Shown here: in pieces, positions 21,001 through 49,900 of the stretch
Layout of the letters: every line of letters starts with the position of its first letter
Numbering within the stretch: position 1 is the first letter of the stretch
NCBI RefSeq assembly: GCF_026914265.1
Contig: NC_069125.1
Span: forward strand, 74,029,546 to 74,093,545
Direction of reading: 5' to 3'
Source of the DNA: Mya arenaria
Taxonomy: Eukaryota; Mollusca; Bivalvia; Myida; Myidae
Length of the DNA: 64,000 nucleotides
Program-made: the position numbers and the translations under genes
Notes under the pieces: generated by a model
What the model was told of the DNA's origin: nothing
Databases searched by the model: none
Seen by the model: the letters and a program-made list of their open reading frames with translations, nothing else

Positions 21001-24000
21001 AATAAGCAAAAAGGTCGCAGTTTTATTACAACTTGTAAAAGTTCACAACTAAGGCTAACCTAGGTTTTGGGAAGAGAAAAAAATGCATAAGGTATGTCAT
21101 ATTATATTATAAGCATTCACTGTAAAGATTGAGCTGGTGTCGAAAGTATATCTCAGACATACTCAAAATTGGGATCATGGAGGTCCCTCCTGAATCGGAG
21201 TTGAGAGTGACAAAACACTCAATCTGGTCCATGCTCAAATTCAATTTGTGTTACTTATGCATGTTTTTTAAAACTTGGCATGAAGTTTTCAAACTGAAAG
21301 AAGACATGAGTGGGGATTGAATTTGGGACACTATCATCAAGGTCAAGGTCATTCTTGCCATCTATATTCTGTGCTCATTATACATCAGTTTATTCACTTT
21401 ATTTACATTACATTATACTTACATACATTCCCTCTTTTATAAATTTGTATTTGTAACACTGAATCTTTTATACATGTAACTCTTATTTGCAGAGACCCCG
21501 TTCGGCAATCTAGATCAGACCTTCTCCTACTTTAAAGAAATGGTCCTGTGTCATGCAGTGAATGTATGTCCTAGAATGTAGATAACTTTATCTTGGAATT
21601 TATAGTAGCAATAGAATAACATTGTTTACTGTACATTTATATAAATCTTAAATGCATCATTACGGTATGTATTTAAAAAATGATTGCTTAAAGGTACTCT
21701 CTCATGTTATTTTACTCTATGATATCGATATTGCATGAAAAAATACAGTATTAGCATAAAAAAATATTTTGGTTTTAGTGGAGCACGAGTCAAGAAAGAA
21801 TAAGAAAACCGATGCCTTAACCACAAGGCCAACAAGACTTTAGCAAAAGTTTTTGTTATTTTTATGTCTTAACAATACATTGATAACATCACATAATAAT
21901 GTCAATCAACCAATCATGCAACAACAAAGCTGTAATCAAGTGATTATTATGGTTGTTAACGCTAATTAAAAGTGTGGTCTTCAAAGACAATATTTGAGCA
22001 AATATCAACAATTTCTGAAGGGTTCTAGCTTTTGGTATCATAGCTTTAACACTCCTAATGATTTGTCACACTTTATTTCGTCATACAAAAAAGTGCACTT
22101 TACAAAAACATGAGCAAGCACCTTTAAGAATTGATAAAAACACATACAAGTGGTTTATAATTTACATGCTTTTTCCCTCCTTCTAGCGTCCTCCCCACAG
22201 CATTGAGCTTTTCTCGGCTGACCAGGTTCGGCTTGTGACAGAGTACACGGTCAACACATACTTCCGTCACTTCAAGATGTACAAGTACGCCTTCACTCCA
22301 CTTGTAAGTGCGTCTACATAATCAATAAGCAACATTTTGAACGTCTTATAATTATTGTAAGTTTATTGTTTTCAAGTTTGTTTTAAGTAATAATTTTAAA
22401 AACAAAATGTGTTGCTGAGTTGTCCCAGATTTTTCCTTTTCAAGTTTTTTAAAGAAGTCAAGACCAATTATTTTTAAACAATGAAATTTTTGTGTTTATC
22501 TAAATACTTCTACTTACGATTGTCTGGTGATCATGTTAACATCTTATCTAGATAAATCTTAAATTGAAAATACTACTTTTTGTAAAACTTAAAAATTGAA
22601 CATGATTAAGTGTCTCTGCAAAAACTTATTTTGTGAGTGATAACTTTCTATGTTTAGTTGATTATGGGCACTTAATTTCAGGTAAGACTTGACCTCTCCA
22701 TCAATTATGTCGGGATGCCACCTACTCCACCACCCACAGAAGGTACAACTTATTGTGTGTTTAGCATTCATGTACTGAAGAACCAAGGTTTTTGGAGAAA
22801 TTATGTTGTTTTTCTTGAAATTTCACACATTAATTCCGTTATATACCATGTAGCAAGATTATTTTACAGTGAACATTATACTGGTATTCTTACACTTAAA
22901 TAGATGTCCTATATATAAATTTGTAGTCAAACTAGGAATAGAACCTTTTTATATGATGCTGAAATTATATAGTAATCACACATTCTGTCCGTCTTTTATC
23001 TGTTTATTTTTTTTTTAAAGTTTTTTTCTTTATGACTTTAAAGGCATTTAAGATATCAACTACAAACTTGATATGTATGCTGAAAGTATATGTATGTTCT
23101 CAAAGTTAACTCCATTTATATTTATTTTATTTAAGAAAAACTACATATTAGTTTTGCTTGGACAAGATGGCAATGTGAACGTGTGCACAATGAAATAACT
23201 TTAAATGTATAATAATTATTTTTTGACCAATTTAAAAACAAATACAAAGAACATGAGTTCATTTATAATCAAATTCCCTTGATCAATCTTTGCGCATGGA
23301 AAGTTTACTGATTTTTAGCTCTACTGGCCAAAGGCCGGAAGAGCTTATGCGATGGTAATGTGTACGTAGTATGTTCGTCCGTAAGTTTTAAAGAAATGCT
23401 TTCAATTTTTAGCCAGGTCTGCATGAGCGAATTCTATTTTTAGGCAAGTTTACATGTACATGTAAATTCAAGTCTAGAGTTAAGGGAGACAATTTGCAAG
23501 TCTAGGATTTTGAGAGACAATTTGCTTTTTGCTTCTGCAGTTGATTTTGTGAATAACTCTGCCTTGTTCTTGTTGAAAGCCCAAAGGCCATTTTTTAGCT
23601 TTAAGTTCTGTAGTTTGTGCATTCATCTTAACAAAATTGGTTGTGAATGTTTAAGTTATGCACCTGGTGTCATTACTGGCCACACCCAGGGTTCACAGGT
23701 TTGGTAAACATAAATTTGGAAAGGTTTGAAAATCTTTTTGTGTGTTCGTGCATCCATCTCAGCACAGTTGATTGTGAATGTTTGTTCAAATTGATCAATG
23801 TTGTCCTAGGATGCCCTTGACTTTGACCTTTTGACCAACTTTTTTTAACTTTTAAAACTACAGAAACTTTTACTATTAAAGTACAGTTTTGAAAGCATTT
23901 TTTTTTTGTCAGATGACTTTTACTTGGCACATATTAAAATAGTTCATGCAACTAATCTGCTTACAATACTTTCTTGGCTCAGATGTTGAACGTGCTACGT

Positions 24001-46939: not shown

Positions 46940-49900
46940 CTATCCCAGATCATCTGACCATGTACTTTCCACATCACTTCCATCAAAGTCAGCCTGTAAT
47001 TTACAACAATGGAATGATATGGGTCCAAAACAGATTAAAAACTTCACATCATTAAAATTGATTCAATATTTGTTTCCAAACCCTAAGCTCAATTCATTTA
47101 TCAGTTCTTTTAAAGACTAAGATCCTGTAAAATTAATTAGGGTTACATGTCAGTCAAGCATCACAGTGTGATGTATTACATTAAAGGGTATAAACTGATA
47201 CATTGCTACACATGAGCAAAATATAAACAATAATGTGTATCAGCTAAATCTACTTATATGCTTATTCAAAGACAATCCAGGCCTGTAGCTTACCTCAGAC
47301 ACACTGTGTTCCATCTCAACATCAAATGTGTTCTCTGCCCCAGACTCCCCATTCTCCACTTGCTCAATCCCTTGTCTTGCGAGCTCATTTGTAGGATCAA
47401 GGCTACAACAGAGGACAAATAGAGTTCATACTGAAAGTTTGTGTATGTTTCTTTAAAATTCTTTAACCCAAAAGTTTGCGTTGCTTTAAAAATTGATTAC
47501 ATGATTTTGCTTGTTCTGAGTGTAATAAAACCCCTTTGCATTTCTTATATATTACACTTGTGCAACATTCATGTCATGTGATAAAAAGAATGTTACAATT
47601 GTTGCCATATAAATAAACAAGAGCTGTCGTAAGACAGCGCGCTCGACCACGCCGCTTTGACTTAGAAGTGAATACAATAACTATGTAATATGTGTCTGTC
47701 AAAAGCAATAAAAAAATCAAATCAAAAAGTGAACAAGAATCACGATGTGACAAAACCAGGTTTTTAATGATTGCAGAAGAGATTCAGTTTCAACTGCTTT
47801 CTTTTATTTTTAGTAACAGTGACCTTAATTCCATGGGCCCCAAACACAATCCCATGGAAGTCCTCCATAAACTCTCCCTACATATCAAATTTGGTCACAG
47901 TATGTCAACCATAACTGAAACAGCAATTTATTTTTAGTAACAGTGACTTTGACCCTAGGGGACCGAAAGGCAATCCATGAAAGCTCTGCATAAACTTGTC
48001 CTATATACCAAGTTTGGTCCCACTATATCAACCCTTACTTGAGTTATTCAGTATTAAGCATATTTCTATTTTTAGCAAGAGTGACCTTGACCGAGACCAT
48101 AACTCTAGGGGCCCAAAACACAATCTTAGGAAAGGTCTCTATAAACTCTTCCTATATACCAAGTTTGGTCAAAATATGTAAACCCTTACTTAAGTTATTT
48201 AATACCAAACCCTTTTTCTATTAGGCCTAAACAAAAAATATGTCTGTTTCGGGTAACCCGACCCTACCTATAATAATGCGCCGACCCTAACTATTTTTTT
48301 CCGTTTCTGAGCCAAAAAAATATTTGTTAGCGAATAGAGAGTTACGAAGGGCAGATAAATGCATATTTTAATCAGAATTATTGTTTATATGATAAAACAA
48401 AGTCAGGCAATGACAGTAATGTAGGAAAGACTGCCATGTGCAAAAAAACACTCTGAACTTACGACAGATTTTGAAAAAAAAAAATAAAAAAATCAAAAAA
48501 AATCCCTACCTAACTTTCCTAGAAATTTTGGGAAGGTTGCCCTAAACAAACAATTATTTTTTTTTGGCCTTAATAGTAACCTTGACCTTGATCCTAGGGG
48601 CCTCAAACGCATTCCCATAAAAGGTTTATATGTCCCCCATACATACCCGAGTGCCTTGCTGTACTGGTCAAGGGCCTCCTGGTGGTCCCCGGTCAGACGC
48701 AGGAAGTCAGCCAGCAGCAGGTGCAGCTTGCATGTACTCTGGTTAACTAAGTAACTCCGCACTCTGTCACAATAAACAGCATTAAAACATAATCAGAATT
48801 ACTTTATACAGTATCTGTAAAGTATTATTAAATGCTTTCTGGTGAATTGTAGAGATTTATCTTTGATATATAACTTGATATTTTCATTGTTTCAAACAGG
48901 GAAAATATGTATTTGATATTTTTCACTGTACTTAAGTTATAGCCTGTTCTGCTACCAAAATCAACATCAGCCCGCACAGGGCTGGGACACAATATCTGTA
49001 ACGTTATTGCTATAATCAGGTAACATGCACATACTGATTGGCTTGTTTATCTGATAGCATTCTTTTAAATGTCATGACGCATAAGGCATAATGAAATGTT
49101 TCGTGTAAGAACACAATATAATATAATTTACCCTATGAACAACATAAGTTAATTTTTCATTCATGGCTACAATGCACAGACAACGTCAACATGTATCATA
49201 CACTACATAAATAGTTAAAGGAATACATAGACAAGTCCTCTGTCTGATGTCAGATGTGTGTTACCAATTTGTTTACCATTTGACAGTTTCACATTGATTG
49301 GCAATGTCACAAGCGTTTGTTCCTGATAATATCGCCATTCTATTGGAGACAAAAGGTAACCATTGCTGATAGACATACATAGCGGCAGAATGTTCTACTT
49401 TGGTCTGACCTTTCACATTTGTCAACAGATTCTAAAAATGTTCATATCAGTAAAATGCTCTATTTTTCAAACTTTTGACTTAGAAAAGAAAAAAAACAAT
49501 TCTTCAAACATCAGACAAAAAAGAAACTTTTTCATATATTCAAAGTATCATTTTTTAGACCATTCCAATGATATGAAATATATATATAAATGATCCAAGT
49601 ACAATGACTTAATAATTCAACTACATTCAGATGGCTGTTCTCTTTTTTTGTCAACTGTACCATTATTTTGCCTACCTCTGATAAACTTTGTTCACCTCTT
49701 ATCAGCTATCTGTAACTATTTATATATATAATATGTAAACAAAATAATGTGACACTATTACTCACAGGTCCACTCCGTTGTCAAACTTCTTCTCCTGTTT
49801 GAGGATGTCAGCCATCACATACACCGGCAGCAGGTTGCTCGGGTCTAGCTTCATTGCCTTCTCCAGGTATGGCTTTGCCTGCAAACACTTTATGTATCAT

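Follow-up and report, generated by a model that had tools for sequence, protein, structure and literature searches.

Introduction

The stretch of Mya arenaria DNA analyzed here (contig NC_069125.1, positions 74,029,546 to 74,093,545 of the forward strand; 64,000 nucleotides, hereafter the window) contains several repetitive elements and raises the question of (i) whether elements with unrelated cores share one terminal design, (ii) to which kind of mobile element they belong, and (iii) whether one replicase could have moved them all. A first-pass annotation, made from the letters of the window alone, had proposed one "terminal grammar" for four elements. The full design is present in three of them (E1, E2, and E3), whereas the fourth (E4) shows the 3' end only. 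We assign a probability of about 0.87 to the reading that E1 to E3 are HINEs of the Pearl/Cg_HINE type (old Helentron-associated elements that are not autonomous), which form families distinct by their subterminal inverted repeats (subTIRs), and that E4 is a relic lacking a 5' end, with a 3' end homologous to the 3' end of E2. This reading is based on the terminal anatomy, the unrelated cores, and the insertion of E3 into a T-run without duplication.

Anatomy of the Complete Elements

The complete elements are the following:

23312-24129, plus strand: E1, complete HINE-like element with T5-AGCTC, subTIR, fold-back, weakly repetitive core, 3' subTIR, AGGCCC/GGGCCT hairpin, and CTTGTTT
25358-26235, plus strand: E2, complete HINE-like element in which a 179-bp repeat is present about 3.7 times, with a 12-bp subTIR free of mismatches and terminal TCGTTT
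38060-38971, plus strand: E3, complete HINE-like element in which a 145-bp repeat is present about 2.9 times, with a perfect 10-bp subTIR, strong 5' fold-back, GGGCC hairpin, and CTCTTGTTT

Each of the three consists of a T-run, AGCTC, a local fold-back, the core, the 5' word in inverted form, a 3' hairpin, and TTGTTT or TCGTTT. E1 starts with TTTTTAGCTCTACTGGCC and an immediate fold-back and terminates in GCCAGTGGAGC-AT-AGGCCCTTTTGGGCCT-CTTGTTT. The start of E2 is TTTTTTAGCTCGACTATTC, and its terminus is composed of GAATAGTCGAGC, a GCTGTC/GACAGC hairpin, and CTCTCGTTT. In E3 the start TTTTTAGCTCACCTGA is followed by the strong fold-back, and the terminus comprises TCAGGTGAGC, the GGGCC hairpin, and CTCTTGTTT. 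The 3' hairpin announced by the first-pass annotation was recovered in E1 to E4, but its statement that CTCTTGTTT always follows had to be amended, since E2 closes with CTCTCGTTT.

The subTIRs were 10/11 bp in E1 (5' GCTCTACTGGC versus 3' GCCAGTGGAGC, one mismatch), 12/12 bp in E2 (GCTCGACTATTC), and 10/10 bp in E3 (GCTCACCTGA), the last being one short of 11. Taking approximately 11–15 bp as the subTIR length, three of the four elements were counted as carrying one, with E4 as the exception.

Secondary structure was evaluated by folding the ends as single DNA strands and comparing them with 200 shuffles. The 5' fold-back was strong in E3 (z -8.7) and E1 (z -3.6) and weak in E2 (z -1.85, equaled by 11 of 200 shuffles). 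A 3' palindrome or stem-loop was present in all four elements, with z-scores of merely -1.5 to -3.1 (E1 -3.1, E2 -1.5, E3 -1.8, and E4 -2.2, equaled by 1, 12, 13, and 5 of 200 shuffles, respectively). Among E1 to E3 the fold-back was therefore strong in two and the 3' hairpin in one. The inverted repeat complementary to the nearby 5' subTIR, a trait of Cg_HINE and DINE-1, was likewise clear in E1 and E3 and weak in E2. Regarding the 5' end, the proposed T-run plus AGCTC with local fold-back was accordingly clear in E1 and E3, weak as to folding in E2, and missing from E4.

Satellite-like arrays, which are frequent though not universal in HINEs, occupy the center of E2 and E3 (179 bp x 3.7 and 145 bp x 2.9) and, in the form of diverged units, that of E4. 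The core of E1 consists of two diverged 40-bp copies (82.5%) and a 28-bp duplication, with hardly any array. The hallmarks of canonical Helitrons, i.e., 5' TC, 3' CTAG, and insertion between A and T (PMC7992393), were not found; the termini read as T-run-AGCTC and TTGTTT/TCGTTT with flanking T's.

Chance Expectation for the Shared Ends

Both strands of the window were scanned for a T-run followed by a subterminal word measuring 10 bp or more (one mismatch allowed from 11 bp), the inverse of this word 150–3000 bp downstream beside a hairpin, and then T[TC]GTT. A first version of the scan (TTGTT alone, words from 9 bp) had given two full elements and was widened to T[TC]GTT and words from 10 bp before the simulations were performed. 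The scan returned precisely E1, E2, and E3, as compared to a mean of 0.17 and a maximum of 1 in 60 simulated third-order Markov windows, a contrast that flatters the elements because the rule was derived from them. It shows that the combination of parts, not base composition, sets the elements apart and says nothing on how frequent such elements are elsewhere. The hairpin plus T[TC]GTT was common by itself (9 in the window versus a mean of 4.1 and up to 12 in simulations), and TTTTTAGCTC was rare (4 in the window versus 0.27 expected, maximum 3 in 200 simulations).

The occurrence of TTTTTAGCTC at 50484 was considered as a further element and rejected, since the scan joined no 3' end to it. 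A 42-bp tandem array (50526-51157, 15 copies at 96%) lies about 30 bases downstream of this word, and by eye we take the sequence after the array to resemble a piece of a tRNA-derived short interspersed nuclear element.

Insertion Site of E3

E3 is hosted by an older repeat:

37781-38059, plus strand: degenerate repeat hosting E3, composed of two units of about 150 bp that are 71% alike, with the unit 37781-37930 representing a paralogous empty site

When the flanks of E3 were joined, they aligned through the junction to this upstream unit with 72% identity over 156 columns. The filled site reads ATTTTT, element, TTAAGTTATTGCCC, as opposed to the uninterrupted ATTTTTCTGAGTTATTGCCC, without target duplication (in wider context, GCAGTATTTTT, E3, TTAAGTTATTGCCC versus the uninterrupted unit GCAATATTTTTCTGAGTTATTGCCC), and an exact 11-base match, AGTTATTGCCC, lies past the T-run and junction. 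The alignment score peaked at 93 with the right flank beginning at 38969 (TTAAGTTATTGCC), and none of 150 random right flanks with an equal choice of 45 boundaries reached this value (maximum 85). A fixed boundary at 38971 gave a score of 87, which was reached by 1 of 1000 random right flanks when the array was excluded (maximum 88) and by 2 of 300 when it was included. These results support an insertion of E3 inside a T-run without target duplication. Empty sites split in T-runs had been anticipated by the first-pass annotation, and this is the one seen in the window. The target duplications typical of transposases, which it had named as contrary evidence, did not appear, as the direct repeats common to both ends of E1, E2, and E3 were no longer than TT or TTA.

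The flanking sequence of E2 suggests that this element may likewise be situated in an older repeat. Its right flank alone matched the area of 10470-10517 with a score of 57 (0 of 400 controls). The left score of 122 obtained with the other target of the empty-site search (24800-25300) is a meaningless self-match, because this target overlapped the supplied left flank. The flanks on both sides of E2 (25224-25267 and 26233-26280) carry pieces of one repeat kind, with 78–80% identity to 10470-10517.

Relation Among Cores and Ends

No core-to-core match among E1 to E4 was obtained by blastn at an E-value of 1e-3. In pairwise core alignments one of the six pairs, E1/E3, exceeded its 40 shuffles (z 3.7). 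The score of this pair (47) was reached by 5 of 300 further shuffles and nearly so by the reverse strand (45), and the four cores were therefore counted as unrelated, as had been proposed beforehand. The terminal 49 bases of E2 can be aligned with those of E4 at 84%, whereas their cores do not align; judged from these alignments, E2 and E4 are elements with related ends and different cores.

Partial Elements

In addition to the complete elements the window contains the following partial or questionable elements and related repeats:

47611-48623, minus strand: E4, with 3' end (hairpin GCTGTC/GACAGC, CTCTTGTTT), diverged repeats of about 124–150 bp, and apparently an insert with inverted ends at about 48220-48574
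57380-57640, minus strand: fragment with a weak 3'-end-like hairpin and TTGTTA, unconvincing as an element
29977-30160, plus strand: remnant (3' part, decayed) of another E2-family copy, 78% over 91 bp on the 3' side
1-580, plus strand: repeat array of the E3-core kind, truncated by the window start, 3' terminal grammar not seen by eye

Position 48640 had been given as the 5' end of E4 and was rejected, as it is without T-run-AGCTC and, by eye, adjoins the end of an exon. Within 3 kb the inverse of the E4 3' word was not found at up to three mismatches; at four mismatches there was one spot, situated within the 3' end itself. The recurring inverted word of 11–13 bp claimed for all four elements was consequently retained for E1 (11 bp, one mismatch), E2 (12/12), and, at 10/10, for E3, and dropped for E4.

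There are signs of a nested insert within the E4 array. The segments that would form its ends (48220-48258 and 48535-48574) match each other in inverted orientation with a score of 41, a value reached by none of 1000 random pairs at the same distance (maximum 37). The core repeat resumes beyond the insert (48574-48618, 80% over 45 bp). Joining both sides of the insert raised the match to another unit merely from 141 to 144, and the insert limits are approximate.

Possible TPR-type exons were noted on the minus strand at 48493-57250. Two fragments weakly matched anaphase-promoting complex subunit 7 (E-values 0.004 and 0.01, with three other proteins scoring higher at 0.01), the TPR at 48493-48792 fell below the Pfam cut-off, and the whole open reading frame (ORF) 57006-57491 had no match at 0.001. 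If the exon reading is right, E4 is intronic.

The fragment near 57387, which the first-pass annotation had counted as a family member, was not accepted as such. Its hairpin is weak (z -0.76, equaled by 38 of 200 shuffles), and a canonical 5' end was not seen by eye. It distantly resembles the repeat hosting E3, with a score of 51 that none of 500 random window segments reached (maximum 50).

Comparison With Known Systems

PMC7492417 describes 11 Cg_HINE elements of Crassostrea gigas with 11–12 bp subTIRs, complementary inverted repeats of 7–12 bp, central repeats of 140–180 bp, a 3' palindrome, a preference for TT, no target-site duplication, and a short microsatellite in the left flank. Leaving out this microsatellite, the design of E1 to E3 matches that of the oyster elements in every feature compared, namely the subTIR of about 11–12 bp, the inverted repeat beside the 5' subTIR, the satellite-like center, the 3' palindrome, the T-rich target without duplication, and also the order of the parts, as far as descriptions rather than sequences are compared. 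The shared terminal grammar is not new, having been published in detail for oysters (PMC7492417). Of the three groups described there, the one in which all modules are unrelated corresponds to the relation among E1, E2, and E3, the one with similar flanks and unrelated repeats approximates E2 and E4 at the 3' end, and the remaining one comprises elements alike throughout. In contrast to Cg_HINE, an array is all but absent from E1, and a 5' end is missing from E4.

The Pearl family of bivalves (CvA, CvE, CvG) and the related DTC84 and MgE, as they are described in citing papers (PMC7492417, PMC5139131, PMC11136912), are similarly modular, conserved ends enclosing a short array of repeats about 160 bp long. 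According to PMC4067079, HINE and DINE-1 elements have subTIRs and a 3' stem-loop and insert into T-rich targets that are left unmodified, families are proposed by an identical subTIR of at least 11 bp, and near-identical subTIRs occur between Helentrons that are otherwise diverged. DINE-1 and HINE-Mo thus resemble the present elements in subTIRs, 3' stem-loop, and a TT or T-rich insertion site that shows no sign of having been modified, whereas DINE-1 differs by its 13-bp subTIR, conserved core, and known autonomous partners (PMC4067079). Oyster elements mixing Helitron and Helentron features (PMC7992393) and eight oyster Helitrons that have conserved "boxes" in common at both ends (PMC8268682) have also been described. 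The Pearl/HINE affinity suggested by the first-pass annotation is hence borne out by the subTIRs, the 5' inverted repeat, the 3' palindrome, tandem cores in most elements, and one T-run insertion, but does not extend with the full grammar to E4 and the 57387 fragment.

Alternative Explanations

Inverted repeats near both ends and a 5' fold-back would also be expected of fold-back elements or miniature inverted-repeat transposable elements (MITEs), moved by a cut-and-paste transposase that recognizes the inverted repeats, and Pearl elements have been described as MITEs (PMC5139131). The ends of the present elements are unequal, however, with a hairpin and tail after the 3' repeat alone, the T-run is split at the E3 empty site, and the target sites of E1 to E3 show no duplication exceeding TT or TTA (for E2 alone, duplication of TTA or TA is possible), so that we regard a MITE-type origin as improbable. 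Alternatively, unrelated repeats in an AT-rich genome might have acquired T-runs, AGCTC, and hairpins by accident, i.e., by convergence or composition. CTCTTGTTT by itself is indeed at chance level (4 in the window versus 1.44, maximum 6, in simulations), several hairpins fold hardly better than shuffles, and the scan rule had been tailored to the elements, with an extension to TCGTT once E2 had been seen. Against such an accident stand the three full matches versus at most one across 60 simulations, the backing of the E3 boundary by an empty site, and the similarity of the E2 and E4 3' ends (84% over 49 bp) despite non-aligning cores, and we consider it very improbable.

Several observations weigh against the HINE interpretation itself. 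Besides the chance-level frequency of CTCTTGTTT, these are the missing T-run and AGCTC at the proposed 5' end of E4, the weakness of several folds, and the barely repetitive core of E1. The empty site is a single one, paralogous, and of 72% identity; in the window none was found for E1, and none for E2, where joining the flanks lifted the score just from 57 to 58; one was likewise not available for E4. The left boundary of E3 is not sharp in the alignment, the score rising from 87 to 91 when four bases of the element were retained, and it therefore rests on the T-run common to E1 and E2. Furthermore, among the 45 stop-to-stop ORFs listed for the window (90 amino acids or longer), 10 of which were covered by the Pfam scan, none had the size of a Rep/helicase ORF (over 1000 amino acids), the largest being a reverse transcriptase of 394 amino acids; no search was aimed at smaller or broken pieces of Rep.

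Other Features

Pattern scans of viral contigs with the core word and two 3' ends gave no match. Two matches of the core word in prokaryote genome contigs were dismissed as fortuitous; E3 aligned best with these contigs over 31 bp at 90% (L001, E-value 7e-6) and over 20 bp (L002, E-value 8e-5), and the L001 match is situated in what is presumably a bacterial gene.

Further features of the window are:

839-4849, plus strand: apparently broken non-long terminal repeat retrotransposon, ORF 2709-3893 being a reverse transcriptase (Pfam RVT_1, E-value 1e-31)
6476-8792: minisatellite with a 29-bp unit in about 80 copies
11554-11829, plus strand: piece with a Rab-GTPase-TBC domain
28991-29325: MITE-like 47-bp inverted repeat, 98% complementary, arms 241 bases apart
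42452-42775, minus strand: piece with an MTP18 domain
44362-44575: 73-bp inverted repeat, 96% complementary, enclosing another inverted repeat
61342-61668: MITE-like 45-bp inverted repeat, 73% complementary, first letters TTAAAGCTGCACTCTCACA

Mobilization and Implications

As HINEs, the elements would be copied in trans by the rolling-circle Rep/helicase of a Helentron, as the Helitron literature suggests. Copying would begin at the 5' end of the element and proceed to the 3' hairpin as the stop signal (direction of copying and 3' hairpin are given in PMC8268682), and insertion would take place between T's, with T-runs as the target. That T5-AGCTC and hairpin-CTYGTTT serve as a common address, by which one Helentron replicase moves families that differ in their subTIRs and whose satellite cores are unrelated, is a tentative and rather doubtful extension of this scheme. 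An autonomous partner for such bivalve elements was not named in the titles and abstract openings surveyed, and none of the 10 oyster Helentrons with a Rep motif reported in PMC7492417 could be tied by its authors to the Cg_HINE elements.

These elements illustrate the dispersal of genomic satellite repeats by way of rolling-circle copying, as has already been argued for oysters. If the shared letters hold genome-wide across families, they would provide a concrete query for the autonomous partner.

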